A program made the position numbers and the translations under genes. Under the pieces are notes generated by a model, which saw nothing but the letters and a program-made list of their open reading frames with translations, did no database searches and was not told the DNA's origin. This document shows, in pieces, positions 7,720-37,285 of a DNA stretch of 39,982 nucleotides. The stretch comes from a virus: IMG/VR virus record IMGVR_UViG_3300032163_000619, positions 1 through 39,982 of that record. One strand, written 5' to 3'. How positions within the stretch are numbered: position 1 is the first letter of the stretch; each line of letters begins with the position of its first letter.

Positions 7720-8070
7720 ATGCACATAAAAATAGAAAAAAGATATTCAGCCGAGACTAAACTAGAAGGAGAAGCAAATTCTTTCAAAGAGTTTATTATT
7801 GCTAATCGTAGCAATTTAAGCGGTAGCGATTTACGCGGTAGCGATTTAAGCGATAGCTATTTACGCGATAGCAATTTAAGCGATAGCGATTTACGCGGTA
7901 GCAATTTAAGCGATAGCAATTTACGCGATAGCAATTTAAGCGATAGCGATTTACGCGATAGCAATTTACGCGGTAGCGATTTACGCGATAGCAATTTACG
8001 CGGATGTAGGATTAAAGTTATCCAAAAAGAAGACCTACTGAGAAGTTTAGGAGTAATAATTGAGGATTGA
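7720..8070 (+). CDS. Pentapeptide-repeat protein (Ser-type repeats)
   Basis: The product is 116 aa. After a ~30-residue N-terminal region there are 13 uninterrupted pentapeptides (7810-8004) of the form S(N/D/Y)L(S/R)(G/D), for example SNLSG, SDLRG, SDLSD and SNLRD, followed by a short helical end. Leu occupies the central position as in the pentapeptide-repeat family (A(D/N)LXX), which folds into a right-handed beta helix. Here Ser replaces the usual Ala at the i-2 position. Family members include DNA-mimic gyrase inhibitors such as MfpA and Qnr, but many have unknown roles. The array is very regular at the DNA level. Confidence 0.85.
   Translation: MHIKIEKRYSAETKLEGEANSFKEFIIANRSNLSGSDLRGSDLSDSYLRDSNLSDSDLRGSNLSDSNLRDSNLSDSDLRDSNLRGSDLRDSNLRGCRIKVIQKEDLLRSLGVIIED
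7810..8004 (+). repeat. 15-bp tandem repeat array (13 units) coding the pentapeptides
   Basis: Units alternate around GCGATTTACGCGGTA and GCAATTTAAGCGATA, differing at only a few positions in any pair. The near-identity of silent positions indicates recent expansion by slippage or unequal recombination rather than long divergence. Confidence 0.9.
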
Positions 8071-12214: not shown

Positions 12215-12550
12215 TTGAAACAAAAGAGCATTAGCCAACCAAAAATCAAAGAGAAGGATTTGCAAAGGGCAATCCTTGACTGGCTGAGACTGAAAAGAAT
12301 CTTTGCCTTTAAAATAAATAATGTGGGCATTAAGAAGCCAAATGGCAGTTATATCCCCAGCCAGTTGCGTGGAATCAGCGACATAGTGGGTATTTTGCCC
12401 CACACGGGGCGATTCCTGGCGATTGAGGTGAAAGGGTCGGGCGGAGTCGTATCGCCTCACCAAGAGCAGTTTATCGCTAATATCAACAAGTGGGGCGGAG
12501 TAGGAATAATTGCCTATAAGTTGGAAGACATAATAGAAGTTTTAAAATAA
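12215..12550 (+). CDS. VRR-NUC domain nuclease
   Basis: The product is 111 aa from a TTG start. The core motifs of the VRR-NUC family are present: EKDLQRAILDWL (N-terminal helix with conserved Glu and Gln), GISDIVGIL (Asp) and FLAIEVKGSGG (ExK), followed by SPHQEQFIANINKWGG. Such free-standing proteins are common in phage replication regions and are thought to act as structure-specific nucleases. The gene start is duplicated 910 bp upstream with an ATG, so the present TTG start is probably a consequence of insertion of the SPFH gene. Confidence 0.88.
   Translation: MKQKSISQPKIKEKDLQRAILDWLRLKRIFAFKINNVGIKKPNGSYIPSQLRGISDIVGILPHTGRFLAIEVKGSGGVVSPHQEQFIANINKWGGVGIIAYKLEDIIEVLK
12216..12253 (+). 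repeat. 38-bp direct repeat, right copy
   Basis: Right copy of the repeat flanking the SPFH gene; it forms the first codons of the VRR-NUC gene. Confidence 0.85.
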
Positions 12551-12557
12551 TCAAACT

Positions 12558-13079
12558 ATGGAAAATCTAATCAAAACCTTTACCGTAAATATAACCAAAC
12601 AAACTTGGAAACAGGCCGTAAGCTCTGTCGGCAACACTCCTAAAGATTATAAAGTCTGGAAAGTCGGCGACCAGTTTAAGCACCCTAAACTTGGCCAAAG
12701 AGAGTTGGTCTTGGTCAATGGTATAAAGTCTTTTAAGAAAGCCATTGAATACGCCAAAGATAATAAATTAAACCTAACTTCTCCTTATGAAGTCTTCGCC
12801 TTAAAGATTAATTTTGAGAAAGAACTTGGGGGTTATGGCCACATCGTGGCCACCACGGAGTGCGCCTTCGTGGGCTACCGGCGGGCATGCGATGTCTGGT
12901 GGCGCGGCGGGTCCCGCGAGGCCCGCCTGGGTTGGCTCGAGGGCTTCGGCAGCTCCAGTGGTTGGTTTGCCTTCTCCCGCGATTCCAGTAAATCTTCAGC
13001 TCCCGACTTGAATAATAAAGATTTAGACGGCGAAGTTGTTGAAATCAAGGGAATAGAATATAAATTAACTAAGATTTAA
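12558..13079 (+). CDS. Hypervariable protein 1, candidate DGR target
   Basis: The product is 173 aa. Residues 1-94 are closely similar to the second paralog (13597-14238). Residues 95-140 (bases 12840-12977) form a GC-rich block ending GWFAFS, with Trp, Gly and Arg-rich content (VWWRGGS) compatible with the C-type-lectin-like variable domain of DGR target proteins. The tail (residues ~141-173) is unrelated to the paralog. Within the block, codon positions 1 and 2 differ between paralogs while third positions are conserved, which is the DGR pattern. The start context AATAATCAAACTATG lacks a Shine-Dalgarno sequence. A ligand- or receptor-binding role is inferred. Confidence 0.75.
   Translation: MENLIKTFTVNITKQTWKQAVSSVGNTPKDYKVWKVGDQFKHPKLGQRELVLVNGIKSFKKAIEYAKDNKLNLTSPYEVFALKINFEKELGGYGHIVATTECAFVGYRRACDVWWRGGSREARLGWLEGFGSSSGWFAFSRDSSKSSAPDLNNKDLDGEVVEIKGIEYKLTKI
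12840..12977 (+). other. Candidate DGR variable region 1
   Basis: A 46-codon block aligned without gaps to 13879-14016. It is far more GC-rich than either flank. Conserved residues use A-free codons (GCC, TCC, CGC, GGC, CTG, CTC, TGG), which is expected if adenines in a template are the mutable positions. There are 14 amino-acid replacements against only two silent changes between copies. Confidence 0.7.
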
Positions 13080-13105
13080 GCGATTTGAATCTATGCTTAT
13101 CCATA

Positions 13106-13303
13106 ATGGAAAACTTAACAGAAAAACAAACAAAAAAAATGATTGAAAAAGCCAAAGGTTCTTGGAAAGTTTTTAATGAGTGGATGGCGGGTCAAACTTG
13201 CCCGTTGATAGATGGAAAGTGTGGATATTACGAATATGATGTAGCCAGATTTATTAGATATAAGTGCAACCCCAAAAATGAGCCATACGAAGAATGGGAT
13301 TAA
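13106..13303 (+). CDS. Small hypothetical protein
   Basis: The product is 65 aa from ATG 13106; a TTG at 13085 would add seven residues. It is charged and helical at the N-terminus, followed by a segment with two Cys (TCPLIDGKCGYYEYD) and a third (RYKCNPKN). It lies between the two hypervariable-protein genes. No family was recognised. Confidence 0.5.
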   Translation: MENLTEKQTKKMIEKAKGSWKVFNEWMAGQTCPLIDGKCGYYEYDVARFIRYKCNPKNEPYEEWD

Positions 13304-13312
13304 CTCCCCCCT

Positions 13313-13498
13313 ATGTCATTAAAACAAATTAAACGATATATGAAATTAAATAATCCTTCTAAACTTTGGCCTTTTCTCCTAGTATTCTTTATCCTATTTA
13401 CGATTGAAAACTTTGGATTAAAAAGATATCTTTGGGCTTCATTTGATGCGATTTTTTCAGTTATTTCATTTTTTGCGGTATTAAATAATATAAAATGA
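13313..13498 (+). CDS. Small two-helix membrane protein
   Basis: The product is 61 aa. There are two hydrophobic helices, LWPFLLVFFILFTI and SFDAIFSVISFFAVL, separated by a short basic loop. The stop overlaps the start of the second hypervariable-protein ORF (ATGA at 13495), suggesting coupled translation. Its relation to the variable proteins is unknown; a membrane anchor or envelope protein is possible. Confidence 0.5.
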   Translation: MSLKQIKRYMKLNNPSKLWPFLLVFFILFTIENFGLKRYLWASFDAIFSVISFFAVLNNIK

Positions 13499-14238
13499 CT
13501 AAACAAAACTGTTGTATGGGCGGATGCGGAGATATTAACTGTGAGCATTGTGGCGACATTCACTCTAAATCAAAACAAAAAGAATATAAACTAACTATGG
13601 AAAATCTAATCAAAACCTTTACCGTAAATATAACCAAACAAACTTGGGAACAAGCCGTAAGTTCTGTCGGCGACACTCCTAAAAATTATGATGTCTGGAA
13701 AGTCGGCGACCAATACAAACTTCCCAAACTCGGTGAAAGAGAATTAGTATTGGTCAATGGTATAAAGTCTTTTGAGGAAGCCATTAAATACGCTAAAGAC
13801 AATCAATTAAATTTAACCTCTCCTTACGAAGTCTTCGCCTTAAAGATTAATTTTGAGAAAGAATTTGGAAATCATAACCACATCGTGGCCACCCAGGAGT
13901 GCACCTTCGGGGGCTACCGGCAGGCGTGCTATGTCTGGTGGCACGGCGAGTCCCGCGGGGCCTACCTGGCTTGGCTCGGGTTCTTCGGCCACTCCTTTGG
14001 TTGGTTTGCCTTCTCAAAAGAAGATAATAAAGTTAATGGAAACGGTGAATCTAATGAAAAAGATTTAGACGGCGAAGTTAATGAGTTGCTGGAGTTGGTT
14101 AGCCAAAAAATAAAAAACATTAGAACTTTTGGGAATAAAGAGGATTATTTTTTCAAGGGATGGCAAAGTGCCTTAGATACTGTAAAACTTGACCTCTCCG
14201 ACCTTGAATCCCTTATAAAAGATAAGTTAAGGAAGTAA
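13495..14238 (+). CDS. Hypervariable protein 2, candidate DGR target with Cys-rich N-terminus
   Basis: The product is 247 aa from ATG 13495, coupled to the previous stop. An internal ATG at 13597 aligns exactly with the start of the paralog at 12558, and the first 17 codons from there are identical, so two products are possible. The 34-residue extension carries CCMGGCG and CEHCGDIH, a possible zinc knuckle. The variable block is 13879-14016. The tail (~75 residues, ELLELVSQKIKNIRTFG onward) is helical and distinct from paralog 1. The same first-and-second-position variation supports DGR diversification. Function as a binding protein is inferred. Confidence 0.75.
   Translation: MTKQNCCMGGCGDINCEHCGDIHSKSKQKEYKLTMENLIKTFTVNITKQTWEQAVSSVGDTPKNYDVWKVGDQYKLPKLGERELVLVNGIKSFEEAIKYAKDNQLNLTSPYEVFALKINFEKEFGNHNHIVATQECTFGGYRQACYVWWHGESRGAYLAWLGFFGHSFGWFAFSKEDNKVNGNGESNEKDLDGEVNELLELVSQKIKNIRTFGNKEDYFFKGWQSALDTVKLDLSDLESLIKDKLRK
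13879..14016 (+). other. Candidate DGR variable region 2
   Basis: Counterpart of 12840-12977. Codon pairs such as CGC/TAC, GGC/TTC, AGC/CAC, AGT/TTT and GAT/TAT point to AAC or AAT codons in an unseen template. Of the 21 differing bases, 14 have A in one copy. Confidence 0.7.
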
Positions 14239-14425: not shown

Positions 14426-14515
14426 GATGGTTGGTTGAATAGAGGGGTACAGAATGTGTCGTGTAGGGCTGATGCCTTAAGGTGTAGCTACCGCCCCTCT
14501 CTTTAGCCAATCATC
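14426..14515 (+). ncRNA. Candidate structured RNA with long closing stem
   Basis: Left arm 14426-14447 pairs with right arm 14494-14515 over 22 positions with a single mismatch (U-C) and a few G-U pairs. The 46-base interior can form up to three further hairpins: TACA/TGTA (14448-14464), AGGGC/GCCTT (14464-14478) and GGT/ACC around GTAGCTAC (14481-14492). It therefore looks like a multi-branched fold. G-U pairs in the long stem argue for RNA rather than a DNA cruciform. It sits in a gap without ORFs (14397-14566), downstream of the second hypervariable gene. No tRNA or known riboswitch was recognised. Confidence 0.55.
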
Positions 14516-22559: not shown

Positions 22560-23501
22560 ATGAAAATCTTGGTAACGGGAGCGGCTGGTTTCATTGGAAG
22601 CCATCTTTACCAAAAGCTAAAATCAGAGGGACATGAAGTTATCGGGATTGATAATTTTAGCCATGCTAGCCAGAACCCGATAAACTCAGAGATAATAGAT
22701 TTTGACATTAGATATCCAAGGCCCGTAAGCGGTAATTACACGGCATTAGACAGTTATATTAAAAATGTTGATATCGTCTATCATCTCGCAGCCCAGATTC
22801 ATGTCGATAAATCAATCGAGAATCCCAGAGAGACATTAGATATAAATGTAAATGGAACGCTTAACATCCTAGAAGCTTGCCGCAAATACAAAAAGAAATT
22901 AGTATTTGCCAGCTCTAGCGAAGTATATGGAACAAGCCAATCAGAATACATGGATGAATCGCATCCGCTTGATGCCCAAAGTCCTTATGCATCTAGTAAA
23001 GTGGCTGGCGACCGGTTATGTAAATCCTATATTGACACCTATGGACTCGACATCTGTATCCTCCGAAATTTCAACACTTTCGGGCCGTTTCAAAATGATG
23101 GAGGAGAAGGTAAGTCTTATGGTGCTGTCATTGGCATCTTTACAAAGGCAGCTTTACGAGGAGAACCCCTTAGAATTTTTGGAACGGGAGAACAAAGTAG
23201 AGATTATATCTACATCAGCGACGCCCTCCAAGGGTATGATATCGGATCAAGATATACCGGTGTGCTAAATATCGGTTCTGGGAAAAGTATTTCAATAAAT
23301 GAATTGGCTCAAAAGATTAAAACTATTACGCAGAGTGCTTCGGAGATTATTCATGTGGAAGCGAGGCCTGGTGAAGTCCAAAGGTTATGTGCCGAGATTT
23401 CAAGGGCGAGATTGCTAGGATTCAATCCACAAACAGACTTTGACAAACACTTAGATGGGTATGTAAAATGGTATAAGGACTTCCATAAGGAGGAATTATG
23501 A
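22560..23501 (+). CDS. NAD-dependent sugar epimerase/dehydratase (extended SDR)
   Basis: The product is 313 aa, the usual length of this family. It has the Rossmann motif GAAGFIGSHL at the N-terminus, VYHLAAQIHVDKS (DVYHLAA-type), FASSSEVYG with the catalytic Ser, and PYASSK giving the YxxxK catalytic pair. FNTFGPFQN and SRDYIYISDAL are further UDP-sugar epimerase signatures. Likely reaction: C4 epimerisation or a related change of a nucleotide sugar. It opens the ~10.6-kb sugar cluster seven bases after the previous gene and ends with an ATG-overlap into the acetyltransferase. Exact substrate cannot be read from sequence. Confidence 0.9.
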   Translation: MKILVTGAAGFIGSHLYQKLKSEGHEVIGIDNFSHASQNPINSEIIDFDIRYPRPVSGNYTALDSYIKNVDIVYHLAAQIHVDKSIENPRETLDINVNGTLNILEACRKYKKKLVFASSSEVYGTSQSEYMDESHPLDAQSPYASSKVAGDRLCKSYIDTYGLDICILRNFNTFGPFQNDGGEGKSYGAVIGIFTKAALRGEPLRIFGTGEQSRDYIYISDALQGYDIGSRYTGVLNIGSGKSISINELAQKIKTITQSASEIIHVEARPGEVQRLCAEISRARLLGFNPQTDFDKHLDGYVKWYKDFHKEEL

Positions 23502-23914
23502 TAGTCGGGATAGGCACGGTAATCTACAATGAGCATCTTTCCAATATCAACGCCACAGCGACCATTGGCAAGAATTGCAAAGTCCATTCCCACGTTTGGA
23601 TTGGCAATAACGTAAAGATTGGCGATAACTGCAAGATTGAAGCCTTCTGTTTCATCCCTGATGGCGTGGAAATCGGACATAATGTTTTTTTAGGTCCACG
23701 CGTAACCTTTACCAATGACAAATATCCGCCGTCTTTCGGCAAGGGTTGGCTGGATACTTTCGTGGAAGATGGAGTTTCTATCGGTGCTGGGGCGGTGATA
23801 TTGCCTGGCATCCGCTTAGACAAAGGTTGCCGAATCGGCGCTGGTGCGGTAGTTACCAAAAATGTGCCTGCGGATGAAGTATGGGTAGGAAATCCGGCGA
23901 GAAAATTGAAATAG
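23498..23914 (+). CDS. Hexapeptide-repeat N-acetyltransferase, WlbB/WbpD-like
   Basis: The product is 138 aa, slightly short for the family (~150-190). Left-handed beta-helix hexads are obvious: ATIGKN, VWIGNN, VKIGDN, VEIGHN, VSIGAG, CRIGAG. The loop FTNDKYPPS and the end GAVVTKNVPADEVWVGNPAR match the WlbB/WbpD/FdtC subgroup, which acetylates the 3-amino group of UDP- or dTDP-linked amino sugars using acetyl-CoA. It has an AGGAGG ribosome binding site and overlaps the epimerase stop. The following 51 bases contain a possible RNA switch ahead of the cognate-type aminotransferase. Confidence 0.88.
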   Translation: MIVGIGTVIYNEHLSNINATATIGKNCKVHSHVWIGNNVKIGDNCKIEAFCFIPDGVEIGHNVFLGPRVTFTNDKYPPSFGKGWLDTFVEDGVSIGAGAVILPGIRLDKGCRIGAGAVVTKNVPADEVWVGNPARKLK

Positions 23915-23965
23915 CAGTTAGGGGGAAACTGCTGAAAATCCCCTCTTTTTTTAAGAGGTTTTTTT
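23913..23965 (+). promoter_or_regulatory. Candidate pseudoknot with competing SD-sequestering/terminator hairpin
   Basis: Stem 1 pairs AGCAGTT (23913-23919) with AACTGCT (23927-23933) around a seven-base loop AGGGGGA. That loop can pair with TCCCC (23939-23943), giving an H-type pseudoknot. A rival hairpin pairs CCTCTT (23942-23947) with AAGAGG (23953-23958) and is followed by seven T that run to the ATG at 23966. AAGAGG is also the only Shine-Dalgarno-like sequence of the next gene. The two folds share 23942-23944 and so exclude each other. It is the one real gap between overlapping cluster genes. Confidence 0.5.
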
Positions 23966-25006
23966 ATGGATATGGAAAGAATACAATTTTTTAAGACAAC
24001 TTTTGGCGAGGAAGAAAAGAAAGCCATCTGCGATACCATTGATTCCGGTTGGGTGGTTCAAGGCCCAAAGGTTCAAGAGTTTGAAGAGAAGTTTGCTGAA
24101 TATGTTGGGGCTAAATATGCGGTCTTTGTGGATTCGGGAACAAGCGCATTATTCTTGGCTTTAAAAGTTTTAAATCTAAGAAATCTAAGCCAAGAAAAAA
24201 TCAGAATCCCATCGCTTACTTTCGTTTCTGATGCAGAGATAGTAGTAAATACTGGCTACATCCCAGAATTTATAGATGTATCTAAAAATACATTTTGCAT
24301 AGAAGAAGGAGATATTCCAGTTCACTTGACAGGTAATAAAAGTTCAGCATTAGCCAGTATTTATGATTCAGCCCATCGTATAGAAAAAGACGATGTAAAA
24401 AATTCTCCTGCTTTGTGGTGTTATTCCTTTTATGCCACCAAGAATATGTCAACCATTCAAGGCGGGATGATAGCTTTAAATGATGAGGAAAAATACAAAT
24501 GGCTTAAGGTTGCTAGAGACCATGGCATCTCGAAAGGAACATTAGAACGCTATACTCAAAAGACCCCAACATATTCGGTGGATTTTGTCGGTTATCGGAT
24601 GAAAGCTGATGATATGAGGGCGGCTATAGGTTTAGAACAACTTAAAAAACTTCCAGCCATGACCGCCAGAAGAAACGAAATTGTGGATAGATATAATCGA
24701 AACCTATTTCTTAACAGGACGGGCAATCATCTTTATCCTATTCTAGTTTCCGATAGAGAAAAATTTTTTGAGGCGATGGAACAAGCCAATATCCAATGTT
24801 CAGTTCACTTCTTGCCCCTAGACTTAATGCCAGCGTTCAAACAATATAGTCCCTGTAAGCATGAGAAAAATATCTGCAAACTTCCCAATACTCACTATCT
24901 TGGGGAACGTCTAGTTTCTCTGCCTCTATTCCCTCAAATGACCAATGAACAAGTTGATTATATCAGCCAAGAGGTTATTAAAACTGAACTTTTACTCAAC
25001 GAATGA
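23966..25006 (+). CDS. DegT/DnrJ/EryC1/StrS sugar aminotransferase, WlbC/WbpE-like
   Basis: The product is 346 aa, near family length (~360-390). FVDSGTSALFLALKVL is the PLP-phosphate binding turn, YDSAHRIEKD the D-x-A-H motif, and SFYATKNMSTIQGGM carries the PLP-linked Lys. DFVGYRMKADDMRAAIGLEQL and the CSVHFLPLDLMPAF C-terminal motif are also typical. It transfers an amino group from glutamate to a 3-keto (or 4-keto) nucleotide sugar. Lying between WlbB-like and WlbA-like genes, the 3-keto uronic acid substrate is the natural inference. Its start lies directly behind a poly-T tract and a possible RNA switch. The stop overlaps the next ATG. Confidence 0.92.
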   Translation: MDMERIQFFKTTFGEEEKKAICDTIDSGWVVQGPKVQEFEEKFAEYVGAKYAVFVDSGTSALFLALKVLNLRNLSQEKIRIPSLTFVSDAEIVVNTGYIPEFIDVSKNTFCIEEGDIPVHLTGNKSSALASIYDSAHRIEKDDVKNSPALWCYSFYATKNMSTIQGGMIALNDEEKYKWLKVARDHGISKGTLERYTQKTPTYSVDFVGYRMKADDMRAAIGLEQLKKLPAMTARRNEIVDRYNRNLFLNRTGNHLYPILVSDREKFFEAMEQANIQCSVHFLPLDLMPAFKQYSPCKHEKNICKLPNTHYLGERLVSLPLFPQMTNEQVDYISQEVIKTELLLNE

Positions 25007-25818
25007 ATTACGCCATTATTGGACTTGGATTTATCTATCCCCGCCACAAAAAATCAATAGAAGAAACTGGAGGCAAAGTTTTATTGACCTGCGATATTGA
25101 CCCTGAAAAAAAGGCTGATTTTGAGGATTGGGTTAAGATGATAGACGACCCCAAATTTAAGGAGGTAGATGCAGTGGTTATCTGCACACCGAATTATCTC
25201 CACTCCAAGATGGCTAGGGAAATACTATTGAGAGGCAAAAGAGTTATTTGCGAGAAACCATTAAGCATAAATGGAGTCGTAGGGTTAGATGATGTAAATA
25301 CGGTTCTCCAACTTCGCTATGCCCCCGAAGTCCTTAAGGCAAAGGAACTTATAAATCCGACTTCCATGGTCAGGGTAGTGGCGAGAATGTTCAGGGATGA
25401 GAAGTATTGGAGCAGTTGGAAAGGGGATGAAAATAAGTCAGGTGGCCTACTTTACAATCTTGGTATCCATTATTTAGACCTTTTAATCTTTCTTTTGGGA
25501 AACGATGACCATATTTTAGAAACTGAAATAACCAGTACCCATGCCACCGGCACTATCAGGTTTGGGGCAAGCAAGACAGGATTTTTTGATATACAGATTT
25601 TACCCACCAAGGAAAATCAAGAGAGATTCGTGGAAATTTTAAATGATGACGGGATGCAGATTATCAATATCTCCAACAAAGACAATTTATCCTATGAAGA
25701 TTTACATTTGGAAGTTTATAAGCATTTTAATAAAGGAGAAGGCATCCCATTGAGCGAAGCCAAAAAATCGCTTGAATTGGTTGAGCGACTTCTAAAGCAT
25801 GGAAACGATAAACATTAA
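25003..25818 (+). CDS. Gfo/Idh/MocA oxidoreductase, WlbA/WbpB-like
   Basis: The product is 271 aa, shorter than WlbA (~310-350). The opening YAIIGLGFIYPRHKKSIEET matches the unusual 'G..GyIaPRH' start of WlbA. VVICTPNYLH and VICEKPLSI provide the conserved EKP Lys motif. YWSSWKGDENKSGGLLYNLG followed by IHYLDLL is strikingly like the WlbA substrate-binding segment with its catalytic His. WlbA/WbpB oxidises UDP-GlcNAc-uronic acid at C3. The shortfall lies mainly in the C-terminal half. The gene overlaps both neighbours, consistent with one operon. Confidence 0.9.
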   Translation: MNYAIIGLGFIYPRHKKSIEETGGKVLLTCDIDPEKKADFEDWVKMIDDPKFKEVDAVVICTPNYLHSKMAREILLRGKRVICEKPLSINGVVGLDDVNTVLQLRYAPEVLKAKELINPTSMVRVVARMFRDEKYWSSWKGDENKSGGLLYNLGIHYLDLLIFLLGNDDHILETEITSTHATGTIRFGASKTGFFDIQILPTKENQERFVEILNDDGMQIINISNKDNLSYEDLHLEVYKHFNKGEGIPLSEAKKSLELVERLLKHGNDKH

Positions 25819-27958
25819 AGACCAATTCCCGCTCATAAGTTTCATTATGCCCGTCTACAATGACGGCGATTCGGTTGAGAAAGCTATTGACTCAATCTTT
25901 GACCAAGACTGGCCAGCGATTGAAGTCATAGCGGTTGATGATGGTTCGCCCGATAATGCGGGCAAAGTTTTGGATGGCCTTAAGAAGAAACATAAGAACC
26001 TTACTGTGGTTCATTTTGAAATGAACCAAGGGGCGTGCAAAGCTAGAAATGAAGGCGCGAAACTAGCCAAAGGCAAATACTTCGCTTGGCTTCCGGCGGA
26101 TGCCAAAATCTATCCTGGCATGGTCAGGTTTTGGGTGGAAACATTGGAACGCAATCCCGATAAGGATTTCCTTTACGGTGGCTATAAGTTTATCAAGGAT
26201 GATGGCACGACCTATATGAACTATTTTAGTGAGGAGTTCTTTCCCTATATGCTGACAGTCTACAACTATATTGATGGTTCATTCCCGATTAAAGCTTCAA
26301 CTTATTGGGAAGTTTCCAAACTAATGAATCAGCCCGATGGTTTGTGGGACTCAAATATCAAATCTTTGCAAGATTGGGATTTTTGGTTGTCAGTTGTCCA
26401 TGATGGAAAGCGTGAGGGACTATATGTCAGGGATTTATTCTTTGAAACGACCCTCCCCCATCCAGGCGGGCTAAGTGATGACTCACACCGGAATTGGGTA
26501 GCCAGATGTAACGCTATTAGAATTAAACACGGCATACCTTTAAGAAAAATTTGCGTGGTTTCGCCGGGTGCGGCATTTTTTGGAAAGTATATCGCCAAGC
26601 TCTTAGATGCTGATTTTAAACATGCCGGAATGCTAATGAAGGGTCATGACTACGATATGATTTATATGATTGGATACTATACCAATCCCCCAGGTATTCT
26701 TGAGGAAACCGCCACTGCTTTTATTGATCCGAGATTTGTAACTCAGATTGCTGAGCTGGGCAAAGAAGGTAAAAGTGTTCCACTCGCTTCTGCGGTAAAG
26801 ATTGTTCACCTTGTAGGCACTGACATCCTACAAATGCAATTTATGAACCGGATAGACTTAAAAATAATAAAATATTACCTCAATGGTATATTCGACCATG
26901 TTTTTACAGAGTTTAAAGAAACTCAAAAAGAGATGAAAGAACTAGCTATTGACACAGAAGTTTTAGCATTGCCCCCTAGGAAGTTCTTTGACCCTAATCC
27001 GTTGCCAAAAGACTTCACAGTTGCCGTATATGCCCCAGGCGTGAATGAAGGCCTCTATAACATAGATTTGATGGTTCAGGTGTCAAAAGCCCTTCCTAAC
27101 GTCAAATTCAGGTTCTACGGCAATCCTGCCAAGAATGGCAAGGAAGAGAACCGAGAGTATATCGGTTATGTCTGGGATATGCAAAAATTTATAGATGAAT
27201 GCTCTTGTTTAGTTAGAATTACCACTCATGACGGCCTTCCGCAGTCGGTGCTTGAGTTCCTGTCTGCCGGACGCCGAGTCATATTCAACCGAGATTTTAA
27301 ATATGTGAACACGGCCAACAAGCAGATAGACATCAAGGCGGTTATTAGTGCCATTAAAGAGGAGATGAAAGAGAAACTGAATCTTGAAGCCAGTAAATGG
27401 GTCAGGGCTAATTTCAATCAAGAAAAATTCAAGGAAAAAATCTATTCTCTAATGTCCTATGATGCCAAGAAGTATTGGGAAAATAGAGCTATTAATTGGA
27501 TAAATGTGGCTGCTAAATTTTATGGCACAAAGGATTGGCTAGAAATAGAGCCATTTATTAAAAATGCCAAGTCAGTCATAGATATCGGTTGTGGCGATGG
27601 CCAGTGGTCTGAAAAATTTGGAGAGGATTATTTAGGAGTGGACATATCCGAAAACTTAATCAAGTATGCCCAAAAGAAATATCCTAAAAGGGAATTTAAG
27701 GTTTCGGCCTTGGAAGATTTAAAAACGGCGAAGAAATATGATGTAGCGTTCTGCTATACGGTGTTTGAACATATCCCCGAAGAGAATATGGCTAAAGCAA
27801 TTAAGGCCTTGAAATCTGTCGCCAAGCAAGTGGTTATGGTTGAACCATTGGATATTCAGACTAAGTATTATTGCCATAACCATGATTACGATAAATGGTT
27901 CAAAATAAAAAAGAAAAAACAATTAGGCAACCGAATGCTGATGGTCGCAGACCTTTAG
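25799..27958 (+). CDS. Multidomain glycosyltransferase-methyltransferase fusion
   Basis: The product is 719 aa with three parts. Residues ~10-230: family-2 glycosyltransferase (LISFIMPVYNDGDSVEKAID, VDDGSPDN, ACKARNEGAK, LPADAKIY). Residues ~250-550: a GT-B-like glycosyltransferase (KICVVSPGAA, TTHDGLPQSVLEFLSAGRRV, the nucleotide-sugar binding end). Residues ~560-719: class I SAM methyltransferase (VIDIGCGDGQWS motif I, YLGVDISENLI, FCYTVFEHIPEENM). One chain may thus add two sugars and methylate or cap the glycan. It overlaps the previous gene by 20 bases and the next by 64. Confidence 0.88.
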   Translation: METINIKDQFPLISFIMPVYNDGDSVEKAIDSIFDQDWPAIEVIAVDDGSPDNAGKVLDGLKKKHKNLTVVHFEMNQGACKARNEGAKLAKGKYFAWLPADAKIYPGMVRFWVETLERNPDKDFLYGGYKFIKDDGTTYMNYFSEEFFPYMLTVYNYIDGSFPIKASTYWEVSKLMNQPDGLWDSNIKSLQDWDFWLSVVHDGKREGLYVRDLFFETTLPHPGGLSDDSHRNWVARCNAIRIKHGIPLRKICVVSPGAAFFGKYIAKLLDADFKHAGMLMKGHDYDMIYMIGYYTNPPGILEETATAFIDPRFVTQIAELGKEGKSVPLASAVKIVHLVGTDILQMQFMNRIDLKIIKYYLNGIFDHVFTEFKETQKEMKELAIDTEVLALPPRKFFDPNPLPKDFTVAVYAPGVNEGLYNIDLMVQVSKALPNVKFRFYGNPAKNGKEENREYIGYVWDMQKFIDECSCLVRITTHDGLPQSVLEFLSAGRRVIFNRDFKYVNTANKQIDIKAVISAIKEEMKEKLNLEASKWVRANFNQEKFKEKIYSLMSYDAKKYWENRAINWINVAAKFYGTKDWLEIEPFIKNAKSVIDIGCGDGQWSEKFGEDYLGVDISENLIKYAQKKYPKREFKVSALEDLKTAKKYDVAFCYTVFEHIPEENMAKAIKALKSVAKQVVMVEPLDIQTKYYCHNHDYDKWFKIKKKKQLGNRMLMVADL

Positions 27959-28671
27959 TCTCGGTCATAATGCCCGCTTACAATGCCGAACGAACCATTG
28001 CCGGAGCAATTAATTCTATTGTTACCCAGACTTATGGAAACTGGGAGCTTATCATTGTCATTGATGGAGCAACTGATGGTACGGAAAAAATTGCAAGATT
28101 ATTTAGGGATGGACGGATACGCATATACAGTTACATTGAGAACAAGGGAGTCGCCGAAGCGAGGAATTTTGGTAATAAAAAGGCGATTGGGCGAATCGCT
28201 ATCGTTCAAGACGCTGATGATTTTTCCCTTCCTACCCGACTCGAAAAGATTGTTGAAATCTTTGCCAAAAGCAAGGCAGAGGTGGTTGTCCATGGAGCAT
28301 TTGTGAACGCCTGGAATAATCAGTACCAATGTATAGAACGCCGATATATTCCTCCCCTTTCAGGAAAGAGAAATGCCTTGGAGAATCGCATAAATGGTTA
28401 CCCCGCCTATAAGAGGGAAGTGTGGCTGAAACGGCCCTTTAGAAAAGAAACCAGATATGCCTATGATTACATGATGCATCTTGATTGGACACTATCGGGG
28501 TTTAAATACGCAACTCTTAATGAAGGACTTTACGACTATATCCGCTATCAAGGTTCAGCATCGGACAGATTTGAAAAATCAGGCCAACGGGCGGAGGCGT
28601 TTGCGAAAGTCAAAGAGATAATTTCAAAAGAATATGGAATCAGAAATAACGGTGATGATGGTGTCGTATAA
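27895..28671 (+). CDS. Family-2 glycosyltransferase
   Basis: The product is 258 aa. SVIMPAYNAERTIAGAINSI, WELIIVIDGATDGT, GVAEARNFGNK and IVQDADDFSLPTRLEK are the standard GT-A elements, with DADD as the metal/nucleotide-sugar DxD. The third motif has IDGATDG in place of the usual VDDGSTD. The start lies 64 bases inside the preceding gene because the conserved N-terminal strand begins soon after it. The stop overlaps the next gene by 38 bases. Confidence 0.88.
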   Translation: MVQNKKEKTIRQPNADGRRPLVSVIMPAYNAERTIAGAINSIVTQTYGNWELIIVIDGATDGTEKIARLFRDGRIRIYSYIENKGVAEARNFGNKKAIGRIAIVQDADDFSLPTRLEKIVEIFAKSKAEVVVHGAFVNAWNNQYQCIERRYIPPLSGKRNALENRINGYPAYKREVWLKRPFRKETRYAYDYMMHLDWTLSGFKYATLNEGLYDYIRYQGSASDRFEKSGQRAEAFAKVKEIISKEYGIRNNGDDGVV

Positions 28672-29617
28672 TCGGCCACTATTCCTTAAAGAATCAGTTC
28701 CTTCACTAATAGAGAATGCAGGCAGAGACTTCAGGTTTATACTTTGGGACAATGGGTCAAACCAAGAGACCAAAGAAGTCGCCCAAAGCCTTCAAAAAAA
28801 ATATGGATTTGAACTCCTACTCAATCATACCAATATCGGCCAACAGGCGTGGGGAAGGGTGCTTGAACTTACTACCGGAAAGTATTTTATCCTTACCGAA
28901 GAAGATATGATATGGTTTCAACCTAATTGGCTTAGTAATTTGGTGGAAGCGATGGAATCCACCCCAGAAATCACCAAGGAAGGCAAAAAAATGGGATTTC
29001 ATGATGAATGGGGGATTATCGCAACCAATGTCATGGTTGACCAAGTGAATAACGGCGGCATGTGGCCATCGAGATTTGTTAGGATGATCGAGAAGAGAAT
29101 CAACAGAATTAACTTTTGGACGAATATACGAGCTGGAGCGGGAACAATGATTTGGAGGACAGAACTTTTGAAGGGGCTTAACATAATGACCCCTAATGTT
29201 CCACCTTTCGGCAAAGCTCTAGATTGGGTAATAGATAAGTATGACCAAGAAAAGTACCCAATGGCACAACTAAGAGACACGTATATCTACCACGCCGCCA
29301 GTCCTTTCTATAACCAACTTTTTCCCGAGGTCTGGAAAGAAAAACAATCAGGGCAGACGATTAAGAGGGCATTTAAGATTTACAAAAAACTCGGAAACTT
29401 TAATTTTAATAACAGGTGGATATTAACTAAACTTAAAAATGGAACATTTAAAGAATATGCAGAAAACCTATACAAGATATTTAATAACGGGCGGGGAAGG
29501 ATTTATAGCTTCCAACTTGCGGAAAAGACTCCAAGGCGAAGTCATAACCCTCGACATAAAATCAGGTCAAGACGTTCGGGACGAAAAGCTAGTAAAAAAG
29601 ACCATAAAAGAGTTTAA
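28634..29617 (+). CDS. Family-2-like glycosyltransferase with overlapping C-terminal tail
   Basis: The product is 327 aa. TVMMVSYNRPLFLKESVPSL, FRFILWDNGSNQETKE, LNHTNIGQQAWGRVL and YFILTEEDMIWF form a GT-A domain in which EED occupies the DxD position. The last ~50 residues overlap the next gene out of frame (29439-29617) and become highly basic (RRSHNPRHKIRSRRSGRKAS), which looks like incidental translation of epimerase DNA. The catalytic domain is complete before that. Either the overlap is real or a stop was lost. Confidence 0.82.
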   Translation: MESEITVMMVSYNRPLFLKESVPSLIENAGRDFRFILWDNGSNQETKEVAQSLQKKYGFELLLNHTNIGQQAWGRVLELTTGKYFILTEEDMIWFQPNWLSNLVEAMESTPEITKEGKKMGFHDEWGIIATNVMVDQVNNGGMWPSRFVRMIEKRINRINFWTNIRAGAGTMIWRTELLKGLNIMTPNVPPFGKALDWVIDKYDQEKYPMAQLRDTYIYHAASPFYNQLFPEVWKEKQSGQTIKRAFKIYKKLGNFNFNNRWILTKLKNGTFKEYAENLYKIFNNGRGRIYSFQLAEKTPRRSHNPRHKIRSRRSGRKASKKDHKRV

Positions 29618-30332
29618 GCCGGACATAATCCTTTCTTTGGCTGCTACTGCAGGAATAGATCGGGTAGAAAAAGACCCAATAGGATGTATTGAGACAAATA
29701 TCTTAGGCGTGAGAAATCTTTTAAAATACAAGGGTAATGCCAAGTTTGTCCACTGGTCAACCTCAGAAGCTTATGGCGAACAGGCAGACAGGAATACAGA
29801 AGAAGATGTAACCCATGTCGGTTCGGCTGGTTCGCCAAGATGGACTTATCAGGCCTCCAAGGTTTGTGCCGACCACTTAATTGTCAACACCGACAAGAAC
29901 GCCTTAGTAGTTAGGCCTTTCAACATTTTCGGTTTAGAACAAAGGGGACATGGTGCGATTGCGGACTTCACAAACTGGGCTTTAAAAGGTCAAGACCTGA
30001 AGATTTATGGCGATGGCAAACAAATAAGGTCATGGTGTATAGTGGATGATTTTGTAGATGCGGTCTTTGCCTTATTAGAGAGTGATTGTTCGGGGATTTA
30101 TAATGTCGGCAGTCCTGATTTTCCTCAAACCATTACTGAAACTGCCGAAGAAATCATTAAATACTCTGGAACAGCTAGTAAGTTGTATTTTGTTCCCAAA
30201 CGGGAGGTCGATGTCTATTATCGAGTGCCGAATATCTCCAAACTAACAAGAGATACTAACTGGACGCCAAAAAGAGATTTCCATGAAGAGCTTAAAAAAA
30301 CCGTTGATTTCTGTCGTGATGCCAGTGTATAA
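29457..30332 (+). CDS. NAD-dependent sugar epimerase/dehydratase (second SDR)
   Basis: The product is 291 aa from ATG 29457 (MQKTYTRYLIT); ATG 29439 is six codons earlier. GGEGFIASNL is the Rossmann motif. ILSLAATAGIDRV, VHWSTSEAYGE (Ser) and WTYQASK (YxxxK) mark an extended SDR, and RPFNIFGLEQ plus IRSWCIVDDFVDAV resemble GDP- or UDP-sugar epimerases. Slightly short (usual ~310). It overlaps the upstream glycosyltransferase by about 160 bases, the longest gene overlap in the window, and the downstream one by 50. Substrate unknown. Confidence 0.85.
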   Translation: MQKTYTRYLITGGEGFIASNLRKRLQGEVITLDIKSGQDVRDEKLVKKTIKEFKPDIILSLAATAGIDRVEKDPIGCIETNILGVRNLLKYKGNAKFVHWSTSEAYGEQADRNTEEDVTHVGSAGSPRWTYQASKVCADHLIVNTDKNALVVRPFNIFGLEQRGHGAIADFTNWALKGQDLKIYGDGKQIRSWCIVDDFVDAVFALLESDCSGIYNVGSPDFPQTITETAEEIIKYSGTASKLYFVPKREVDVYYRVPNISKLTRDTNWTPKRDFHEELKKTVDFCRDASV

Positions 30333-31017
30333 CCGGCAGAACTATATTCACCATGCCATTCAGTCAATTCTTGACCAGACTTTTAACGACTGGGAATTGG
30401 TTATTGTTGATGATGGCTCAACCGATAATACCGAAAAAGTCATAAAGCTTTTTAAAGATGATAGGATACATTATTTTAAAAACAGTAGGAATCGTGGCAT
30501 TAGTTATTCTCGCAATCGGGGCAATAAAATGGCGAGCGGAGAGATTTTAGCGGTTCAAGACTCGGATGATATGAGTCTACCCGACAGACTAGAGGAGATT
30601 TATAAGACCTTTAATGCCTTTCCAAGAACGGATATTGTCTACCATTCTTTCTATGTGCGGGCGATGGATATTAGATATGGCGCAAGAGCGTTGCATAGAG
30701 AATTAGTAAGACCGGGGATTTATAGCAAGCAACGGGCGTTGACAGTTCCCTTTATTCCCGGGCAGTTGGCCTATCGCAAGGCAGTAGCCAAGAAGTGTCC
30801 CTACCGTAAAGAACTTGTATGTTGGGATGATTGGGGATTTATTATAGACGCCACCATGAAGAATTTAAACTTTCTTTGGCTGGAACGGCCACTTTATGAA
30901 TATGTTGTCAGTGAGGATTCAATAACCACAATCAGCGATGGAACGAGCATGAGAAAGGAAGAACAGAAACGCTTAGAGAATATCTTAAGAAAGGAATATA
31001 AACTAAAAGTAACATGA
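30283..31017 (+). CDS. Family-2 glycosyltransferase
   Basis: The product is 244 aa. ISVVMPVYNRQNYIHHAIQS, WELVIVDDGSTDNTEK, RNRGISYSRNRGNKMASGEI and AVQDSDDMSLPDRLEE are canonical GT2 motifs with DSDD as the DxD. It starts inside the epimerase gene and ends on the ATGA overlap with the 2-epimerase gene. It is similar in layout to the enzyme at 27895, possibly an old duplication. It transfers a sugar from a nucleotide donor; acceptor unknown. Confidence 0.9.
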   Translation: MKSLKKPLISVVMPVYNRQNYIHHAIQSILDQTFNDWELVIVDDGSTDNTEKVIKLFKDDRIHYFKNSRNRGISYSRNRGNKMASGEILAVQDSDDMSLPDRLEEIYKTFNAFPRTDIVYHSFYVRAMDIRYGARALHRELVRPGIYSKQRALTVPFIPGQLAYRKAVAKKCPYRKELVCWDDWGFIIDATMKNLNFLWLERPLYEYVVSEDSITTISDGTSMRKEEQKRLENILRKEYKLKVT

Positions 31018-32009
31018 AATTTTTATCAATAATCGGAACACGGCCACAATATATCAAGGTTTTAGATAATCTTGAGAACCATGTGATTGTGGATACTCGC
31101 CAACATTACGACGAAGATATGTCGGACATTTTTATCCGCCAACTTAAAATCAAGCCCAAATACAGTTTGGGAGTTACCGAATTGGGAGATATTTTTAATA
31201 AAGTTACGGCGACTATTTTATTGGAAAAACCCTCGATAGTCATAGTCTATGGAGATACTCGGACAACTTTGGGTGGAGCATTAGCGGCCAAGTTCCTAAA
31301 CATCCCCCTAGCCCATGTGGAATCAGGCATGCGGAGCGGTGATTGGTCGCAACCAGAGGAGATTATTAGGATTATTGTTGACCGAATTGCCGATTATAAA
31401 TTTTGTGCCAATTCATTTGCCAAGAATAATCTGGTAAAAGAATCTTTGGGGAACAATGCTTATGTAGTCGGCGACCCTATGTGGGATGCCCTTAAAAAGG
31501 TACTTCCAATCCCTAAAGCCAAGAACTATGAGCAGTACAATCTTCTGACCATCCACCGCCCGCAAAATACGGATAATAAAGAGGCAATGGCCAATATTCT
31601 GAATGCTTTGGCTGAATCAAAAGAAAGATTTATATTTCCCATACATCCGCGAACCAAGAGAGCCATTAAGAAATTTGGTTTAAAGATTCCCAAGAATGTG
31701 GAACTTATAAGGCCTCAAGGTTATAGGGAAATGATTAAATTGGAAACCAACGCTAAGAAGATTCTCACCGATTCCGGCGGAGTGCAAAGAGAAGCTTATT
31801 GGTTCGGCAAGCCGGTGATTATCCTCCGTACCGAAACAGAGTGGAATGAAATCATTGAAGACGGCTGGGGAGTATTGGTGGGAAGCAGGACTAATTTAAT
31901 CCTTCATGCTTTGCAGAACCATAATCCCCGATTCTCAACCAATCCCCCGCACTTTATCCCTCAATATGGGGCTAAAGAAAGGATAAAAAATATACTATGC
32001 GGAAACTAA
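31014..32009 (+). CDS. UDP-N-acetylglucosamine 2-epimerase, WecB/WbpI (WlbD)-like
   Basis: The product is 331 aa (family ~360). Signature motifs are all present: IGTRPQYIKV, VDTRQHYDEDMSDIF, VYGDTRTTLGGALAAK, HVESGMRSGDWSQPEE, LLTIHRPQNTDN, IHPRTKRA, ILTDSGGVQREAYW and ILRTETEWNE. It interconverts C2 epimers of UDP-GlcNAc-type sugars. With the WlbA-, WlbB- and WlbC-like enzymes it would complete a route to UDP-ManNAc3NAcA, as WbpI does; WecB-type activity on UDP-GlcNAc is the alternative. It overlaps both neighbours slightly. Confidence 0.92.
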   Translation: MKFLSIIGTRPQYIKVLDNLENHVIVDTRQHYDEDMSDIFIRQLKIKPKYSLGVTELGDIFNKVTATILLEKPSIVIVYGDTRTTLGGALAAKFLNIPLAHVESGMRSGDWSQPEEIIRIIVDRIADYKFCANSFAKNNLVKESLGNNAYVVGDPMWDALKKVLPIPKAKNYEQYNLLTIHRPQNTDNKEAMANILNALAESKERFIFPIHPRTKRAIKKFGLKIPKNVELIRPQGYREMIKLETNAKKILTDSGGVQREAYWFGKPVIILRTETEWNEIIEDGWGVLVGSRTNLILHALQNHNPRFSTNPPHFIPQYGAKERIKNILCGN

Positions 32010-33169
32010 AAATACTAGGAATTATAACATCTAATTCGGCTGTTGGATTTTATCGTATTTATCAACCGCTTAAAATGTTGGAAAAGTTAGGATTGGCCGA
32101 ACTTAAACTGACTCCTAATTTTAATTGGGGCAAAACAGAAGGCACTAAACCTTTTCCCGATCTTAAATGGTTTTCTACTGATGATGACACTTTCTATCCC
32201 GATATTATCGTGGCCGAACGCCATGAAGCCCCGCAGTATATCGCCCTAATTAACGGGATAGCCAAAGGATATGGTGTGCCTTTAGTAATGGATACTGATG
32301 ATGATGTTCACTTGGTGCGACCCTATAACCCTGGCTATATGTCCTATAACCCAAATTCGCCTAATTTACCCTACAACACCAAGTTAATGAGTATGCCCCA
32401 AGTGAGTGCGATTACCGTCTCCACCCCTCAACTCAAAGAACGGCACTTAGAATATGGCAAACCAATTTATGTAGTCCCCAACAGCATCGATTTAAAGACC
32501 CGTTCTTTCCCAAAAAAGAATCATAAGGGCAAAATTCGAATCGGCTGGTTGGGTTCGGCTTGCCATTACGAAAACTTGCAGATTATCCGCCAAGCGGTAG
32601 CAGATATAGTTTCCAATTTCCCGCAGGTAGAATTTATCTTTACCAATCTTCATAATGACATTTGGGCAAATCCGCCCAAAGAAGTCATAAACAGAATGAA
32701 ACCGATTTGCCAATATTTCGGCTGTAAGGAGTATCACCCCTATTGTCAGGGTTCTTATGTGGCTTTTGACAAATATGCAAAATTTATAAACCGTCTGAAT
32801 TTAGACATAGGTCTTGCTCCACTTTATGACAATGCCTTTAATAGGGCCAAGTCAAATTTGCGTATTTTAGAGTATTGGGCGGATAAGGTAGCAGTAGTGG
32901 CTTCCCCTGTCAGAGAATACCGAACCACCATCAAAAATGGTCAAAATGGCCTGCTTGCCAAGGAGCGGATAGATTGGTATAATTCCATTAAAAAGCTCAT
33001 CCTAGACAAGGATTTGCGGGGGAAACTGCAAGAGAATGGTTTTAAGTCTTTGGGAATTAATTGGAGTGCTGAAAAACAAGCGTTAAAACTCTACAAAGTC
33101 TATAAGGAAATAATTAAAAATCATGGACGAACAAGCTTATCAAGAATACAAAAAAATAGTGGAATTTAA
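31997..33169 (+). CDS. Family-4-like glycosyltransferase
   Basis: The product is 390 aa. AVGFYRIYQPLKMLEKLGLA at the N-terminus, LVMDTDDDVHLVRPYNPGY in the middle, TVSTPQLKERHLEYGKPIYV and PNSIDL, then a C-terminal GT-B half with KIRIGWLGSACHYENL and LDIGLAPLYDNAFNRAKSNL followed by RILEYW. It is clearly paralogous to the protein at 36215. The family is often found in phage glycan clusters. It overlaps the previous gene by 13 bases and the next by 47. Confidence 0.88.
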   Translation: MRKLKILGIITSNSAVGFYRIYQPLKMLEKLGLAELKLTPNFNWGKTEGTKPFPDLKWFSTDDDTFYPDIIVAERHEAPQYIALINGIAKGYGVPLVMDTDDDVHLVRPYNPGYMSYNPNSPNLPYNTKLMSMPQVSAITVSTPQLKERHLEYGKPIYVVPNSIDLKTRSFPKKNHKGKIRIGWLGSACHYENLQIIRQAVADIVSNFPQVEFIFTNLHNDIWANPPKEVINRMKPICQYFGCKEYHPYCQGSYVAFDKYAKFINRLNLDIGLAPLYDNAFNRAKSNLRILEYWADKVAVVASPVREYRTTIKNGQNGLLAKERIDWYNSIKKLILDKDLRGKLQENGFKSLGINWSAEKQALKLYKVYKEIIKNHGRTSLSRIQKNSGI

Positions 33170-36214: not shown

Positions 36215-37285
36215 ATGGAATTAGAAACAACAAAAAAAATCAAGGTTTTTTACTTTGCACCCGAAAATTCTGGCGTGGCTTTTTATCGTTTCTATCAGCC
36301 ATTAGAAGACTTAAAGGAAAGAGGGTTTATTGAATTAAGAAGCTGGGGCTTTGATTTCACTGAAAAGATATTTGATTTTCCAAGCATCAAGGAGTTGAAA
36401 GAAATTGCCGACTGGGGGGATATTTTCATATTCGGGCGGAGAGATGTCAAGGAATATTTTTTCGCAATCCAAGCTATTAAGGAATTTTCACAAAAGCCGG
36501 TTCTTTTAGACATAGACGACAATATTTTTGATATCAGCCCCTATTTGGCGGCACGGGTGGGATATAATCCCAATGGCGAAGCGATTAAGATTCACGAAGC
36601 GATTACCAAGTATGTTGATGGGATTGTGGTTTCTACGCCTTTTTTAGATGAACTTTATAGGAAATATAATAAAAATATCAAGATAGTTCCCAATGGAGTA
36701 AAAAATGTTTTCATCCCCAAATCCCACGAAGGAATAAATATCGGTTATTTAGTTTCAGGTTCGCACTTGGAGAACAGTAAAATCATAGAGGGGGCTATTT
36801 TAAGGATTTTAAGGAAATACAGCAATGTCAAGTTTTACTATACCAAGGCCTTTAGCGGATTTATGGACTTCATTCCCCAAGAGATTGAAAAACAAGTTAA
36901 TTTTCTTCCTTGGTTGCCTTTAAAAAATTACCTCAATTATGTCAATAATTTGGGACTAGATATAGGATTAGCGCCCTTAATGGACAACTACTTTAACAGA
37001 GCTAAATCCAATATCCGAGTGCTTGAATACTGGCAAAATAGGATGGCGGTCATAGCCACCCCTTTAGATGAATACAATAAGACCATCACCCATGGTTTTG
37101 ATGGCTATCTTTCTCAAGATGATGAGTGGGAACATTGGCTGGAAGACTTAATCCAACATCCTGATAGACGCAGATATCTTATGCAGAACAGTCTTCAAAC
37201 CCTGAAAAACTACGACATTTCCATATTTGCCGATAAGTATTATAATATAATAAGGGAGATTATTAATGGCGCGCACACTAGATGA
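36215..37285 (+). CDS. Family-4-like glycosyltransferase (paralog of 31997)
   Basis: The product is 356 aa with a GGGAGAAC ribosome binding site. It shares with the 31997 protein the opening SGVAFYRFYQPLEDLKERGF, the VLLDIDDNIFDISPYLAA segment, VVSTPFLDELYRKY and PNGVKN, and the C-terminal LGLDIGLAPLMDNYFNRAKS with NIRVLEYW. It is a GT-B glycosyltransferase. It lies apart from the main glycan cluster, between a surface-type protein and a head-tail adaptor, so it may glycosylate a virion protein; that is inference. It overlaps the next gene by 20 bases. Confidence 0.87.
   Translation: MELETTKKIKVFYFAPENSGVAFYRFYQPLEDLKERGFIELRSWGFDFTEKIFDFPSIKELKEIADWGDIFIFGRRDVKEYFFAIQAIKEFSQKPVLLDIDDNIFDISPYLAARVGYNPNGEAIKIHEAITKYVDGIVVSTPFLDELYRKYNKNIKIVPNGVKNVFIPKSHEGINIGYLVSGSHLENSKIIEGAILRILRKYSNVKFYYTKAFSGFMDFIPQEIEKQVNFLPWLPLKNYLNYVNNLGLDIGLAPLMDNYFNRAKSNIRVLEYWQNRMAVIATPLDEYNKTITHGFDGYLSQDDEWEHWLEDLIQHPDRRRYLMQNSLQTLKNYDISIFADKYYNIIREIINGAHTR

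Follow-up and report, generated by a model that had tools for sequence, protein, structure and literature searches.

Two paralogous genes of an uncultured phage as probable targets of one diversity-generating retroelement

The two putative target genes and their surroundings

The window analysed was the entire record IMGVR_UViG_3300032163_000619 (39,982 bases) of an uncultured phage, a linear viral record without end repeat that may be a fragment. It contained two paralogous genes on the plus strand that are putative targets of a diversity-generating retroelement (DGR), namely an ORF of 173 amino acids (target gene 1; 12558..13079) and an ORF of 247 amino acids (target gene 2; 13495..14238). 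Were translation of target gene 2 to begin at an internal ATG (13597), a position homologous to the target gene 1 start, the protein would have 213 amino acids. The two loci shared a direct repeat (12544-12843 and 13583-13882; 87%), and the two proteins were 74% identical over their shared part. Each gene carried a variable region (VR) on the plus strand (12831..12977 in target gene 1, residues ~92-140; 13870..14016 in target gene 2), consisting of a block (12840-12977 and 13879-14016, respectively) and the three codons upstream of it, which showed the same pattern. The VR ends were identical in both copies. The perfectly conserved 3' end in target gene 1 (GTTGGTTTGCCTTCTC; 12961..12976, plus strand) is a candidate place for an IMH-like initiation site. 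Both VRs were internal, being followed by 33 residues in target gene 1 and by 73 residues in target gene 2. By contrast, DGR VRs are mostly found at the C-terminus of the target, a position that is typical but not required (PMC8144416). A second feature, described for phage DGRs of the BPP-1 kind, is a GC-rich hairpin that follows the VR at a distance of 4-34 bp (PMC3240598); the 70 nt after each of the two VRs contained no GC-rich stem of at least 5 bp. In both respects, the present genes thus depart from what is usual for phage DGR targets. Downstream of the VRs, the target genes were unrelated, apart from one stretch that was perfectly common to both (AAAGATTTAGACGGCGAAGTT, encoding KDLDGEV; about 13018-13038 and 14059-14079), which may be a duplication remnant or a conserved tail motif.

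Both target genes were located between DNA-metabolism genes, with an exonuclease-like gene (8335) and a VRR-NUC nuclease gene (12215) on that side, and packaging genes, with genes for a gp3-like packaging protein (15656), a terminase (15996), a portal protein (17334), and a capsid protein (21090) on the other. The stretch that separates target gene 2 from the packaging genes contained a strong long-stem RNA structure (14426-14515; 151-nt fold of -47.4 kcal/mol, z -4.3), for which no Rfam family matched and which is possibly a phage non-coding RNA; it does not constitute a VR template. The phage structural region further enclosed a large sugar-nucleotide and glycosyltransferase gene cluster (22560-33169 and 36215-37285), coding for epimerases, a DegT aminotransferase, a UDP-GlcNAc 2-epimerase, and family 2 and other glycosyltransferases. 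In the ORF 7720-8070, 15-bp tandem repeats (7778-8032) encoded a pentapeptide-like repeat protein.

Differences between the block copies and the predicted template

The two block copies were aligned in register, at an offset of 1039 bases and without gaps, over 46 codons, 30 of which were identical. The 21 base differences were distributed as 7, 12, and 2 over codon positions 1, 2, and 3 and caused 14 replacements, so that the counts of the first-pass annotation (19 differences at the first two positions and two at the third) were correct to the base. The 94 codons before the block displayed 14, 4, and 19 differences at positions 1, 2, and 3, with 15 replacements; the third-position changes of the flank numbered 19 instead of the earlier 'about 17'. 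Block and flank differed in third-position versus first- and second-position changes (p=0.0016, Fisher) and in position-2 changes (p=3.6e-5, Fisher), and the probability of two or fewer third-position changes in 46 codons at the flank rate was 0.0018. In addition, the transition excess of the flank was gone in the block, as transitions and transversions numbered 26 and 6 in the former and 10 and 11 in the latter (p=0.016, Fisher). The only two third-position differences of the block (GCA/GCG and TCC/TCA) both involved A. The three codons directly upstream (12831-12839; GGT/AAT, TAT/CAT, and GGC/AAC) differed in a block-like pattern and fit the same rule, and the variable segment therefore probably starts near 12831 rather than at 12840, judging from these codons.

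The block was also far more GC-rich than its surroundings, as had been noticed before, with a GC content of 0.70 (copy 1) and 0.65 (copy 2) versus 0.38 and 0.35 before the block. A comparison with 8,768 overlapping 46-codon windows from 30 other ORFs of the contig revealed that its composition is unique within the contig. Indeed, the GC3 value of both copies was 0.87 (maximum 0.67 and mean 0.40 in the other windows) and the copies contained 12 and 14 adenines (mean 43 and minimum 22 in the other windows). The scarcity of A at conserved residues, noticed earlier and seen as avoidance of A in constant codons (18 of 18), was discarded as a separate signal, since T was avoided too and A avoidance is hence inseparable from the general GC richness.

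A template was predicted by taking each differing site as a template A and leaving each shared site unchanged; with two copies only, this assignment is made site by site and was not observed. Every difference in the block was explicable by a template A. The minimal template obtained (HIVATKECTFEGYRQACNVWWHGESREANLDWLENFGNSNGWFAFS; search-key form AATAATAACCACATCGTGGCCACCAAGGAGTGCACCTTCGAGGGCTACCGGCAGGCATGCAATGTCTGGTGGCACGGCGAGTCCCGCGAGGCCAACCTGGATTGGCTCGAGAACTTCGGCAACTCCAATGGTTGGTTTGCCTTCTC) would contain 27 adenines and no stop, and adenine changes could create a stop at one codon only (AAG). Its variable codons include AAC (three times), AAT (twice), and GAG (four times), in agreement with the AAC and AAT template codons proposed from the first inspection. 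With the upstream codons added, the template would begin with NNN-H and hold 33 inferred adenines, of which copy 1 keeps 13 and copy 2 keeps 19. DGR misincorporation spectra differ between studies. The non-A bases at the variable position 1 and 2 sites were G (14), T (7), and C (5), and the BPP-1 enzyme in E. coli predominantly misincorporates C into the cDNA, giving G in the VR (PMC12875486). As read from the two copies, the hypervariable segment would thus be explained by adenines of a predicted template, with synonymous sites otherwise constant, as is the case for a DGR target.

Comparison with known DGRs and the missing machinery

Three phages served as positive controls, namely Vibrio phage VP58.5, Pseudoalteromonas phage ACA1, and Faecalibacterium phage FP_Lagaffe, each with a reverse transcriptase (RT), Avd, and a template. 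Their template/VR pairs measured 115-117 nt and contained 13-17 differences, 41 of the 43 differences being at a template A and all but one, a third-position change, at codon positions 1 and 2. The control VRs had a GC content of 0.67-0.69 versus 0.49-0.55 in the rest of the gene, their templates contained 25-26 adenines, and the commonest VR base was G in two of the three phages. The block of the window resembles the three control DGRs in each measured respect, namely VR size, A-site changes at codon positions 1 and 2, a GC-rich VR in a less GC-rich gene, and, as far as the predicted template is concerned, the number of template adenines and the AAY-type template codons. A GC-rich VR is a regular property of the three controls and not a separate oddity of this phage. 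The differences concern the arrangement. Whereas target, Avd, template, and RT lie together beside the tail genes in the control phages, two paralogous targets were flanked in the present record by genes of DNA metabolism on one side and by packaging genes on the other. In addition, the control VRs are C-terminal in a SUMF1-like protein, whereas the VRs found here are internal, in proteins without profile similarity to those targets.

No RT was found in the 39,982-base record. The same search retrieved the RT of all three control phages (about 1e-22), indicating that this absence from the record is real. Avd (PF05635) had no match in the record either, which is a weak test, as no control genome passed the family cut-off; Avd is not used by all DGRs. 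Similarly, the search for an A-rich near-copy that the first-pass annotation had advised gave none: on both strands of the record, the best non-self stretch had at least 33 non-A mismatches over 138 bases, and an exact pattern of the template or VR, in which each A and each variable site was replaced by N, had no match in IMG/VR. The interpretation given in that annotation is thus supported in part. Its DGR-target reading is well backed by the difference pattern and by the match to three genuine phage DGRs, but not by any RT, Avd match, or template in the record; what is accepted here is a DGR footprint and not the presence of a complete DGR in the record. As the linear record may be a fragment, the absence of these components does not refute a phage DGR.

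Very probably, a single DGR has both paralogous genes of this phage as its targets, which best explains the footprint. According to this mechanism, a template repeat similar to the predicted sequence and about 140-150 nt long would be reverse-transcribed with errors at adenines, and the mutagenised cDNA would replace the VR of either target gene. Such replacement would reset synonymous sites to the template, and amino acid replacements would be scattered over about 14-17 codons built as AAC, AAT, GAG, or CAN. The template should accordingly exist, and the process would be active now or would have been so formerly. RT and template are most likely located in that part of the phage genome which was not assembled; a DGR that operates in trans from the host or from another phage ranks second, and a DGR that has already been lost is the least likely. 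A trans-acting arrangement has been inferred for Thiohalocapsa PB-PSB1 (PMC10907252), in which targets without their own RT and template were likewise attributed to a DGR at another genomic locus; the template was detected elsewhere in that genome, whereas none was found here. The more specific possibility that the phage carries targets only and borrows RT and template in trans from its host or a co-resident element, with a family previously unseen as a DGR target, is rather unlikely; if true, this phage would borrow the hypermutation machine of another genome. RT-anchored searches miss remote DGR targets, according to Roux et al. 2021 (PMC8144416). Comparing paralogous targets with each other detects such a case, in which the target is distant from the RT and RT-first surveys would miss it: here, two targets sufficed to reveal a DGR signal and to deduce the larger part of the template, and the sequence so predicted can be used directly to look for the missing element.

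Other explanations of the block were weighed against a DGR. Its composition sharply unlike the surroundings, its conserved ends, and the lack of an RT in the record are also compatible with cassette exchange, in which no mutagenic RT takes part and both genes obtain a GC-rich domain from a set of silent, diverged cassettes through shuffling or gene conversion. This is quite improbable, as normally diverging cassettes would bring synonymous changes, whereas 30 of the 46 codons were identical here and all differences fit a template A; moreover, no third block copy or cassette occurred in the window, and genuine DGR VRs display the same GC richness. Very improbable is that ordinary duplicated genes underwent strong diversifying selection on one surface-exposed domain. 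Replacements concentrated at positions 1 and 2 are expected under selected amino acid change, and the flank too differs between the copies, but such selection would leave synonymous divergence, whereas third positions had changed in about 21% of the flank codons but in 2 of the 46 block codons (P=0.0018), and the sharp GC jump common to both copies would stay unexplained. A dual-coding segment, in which an overlapping reading frame freezes the third positions, is barely conceivable: each block copy is overlapped by an open +1 frame (12814-13011 and 13853-14068), but sequence of 70% GC is expected to contain open frames, the overlapping frames vary too (12 and 8 of 45 residues differing), and the commonest changes, those at position 2, alter the +1 frame.

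Relatives and fold of the target proteins

The target proteins lacked any Pfam or NCBIfam family at cut-off, and no PHROG family scored below E 0.01, the best match being weak (E=0.016). PADLOC returned nothing convincing, the PDB contained no significant relative, and, as far as the searches reached, the IMG/VR, phage, and plasmid collections yielded no relatives. The product of target gene 1 thus appears to represent a novel protein family, as judged from the collections searched. Among the DGR targets grouped into 24 clusters by Roux et al. 2021 (PMC8144416), most had nothing recognisable as a domain beyond the VR, and the present proteins resemble them in this respect. Several candidate relatives were rejected. 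Four matches of the pattern scan and three of a looser pattern turned out to be chance matches when read, and two further ones (398 genomes, one phylum) were at chance level. A consensus of the target family had no relatives among viral contigs, its only phage matches being at E=9, and it was not used as evidence. The 16 terminase relatives (about 21-26% identity) harboured neither an RT nor a target homologue.

The structure prediction that had been suggested to look for a C-type-lectin fold was carried out, giving two AlphaFold models, each from the two-sequence alignment, with mean pLDDT values of 31.9 and 44.9, which were too poor for a fold search. An hhalign comparison of the target proteins with DGR targets of the lectin type (SUMF1-type) yielded no similarity. 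As probable DGR targets, both proteins may recognise variable ligands, for instance structures on the host surface, and the helix pair before the VR, together with the final G-W-F motif, may recall a lectin layout.
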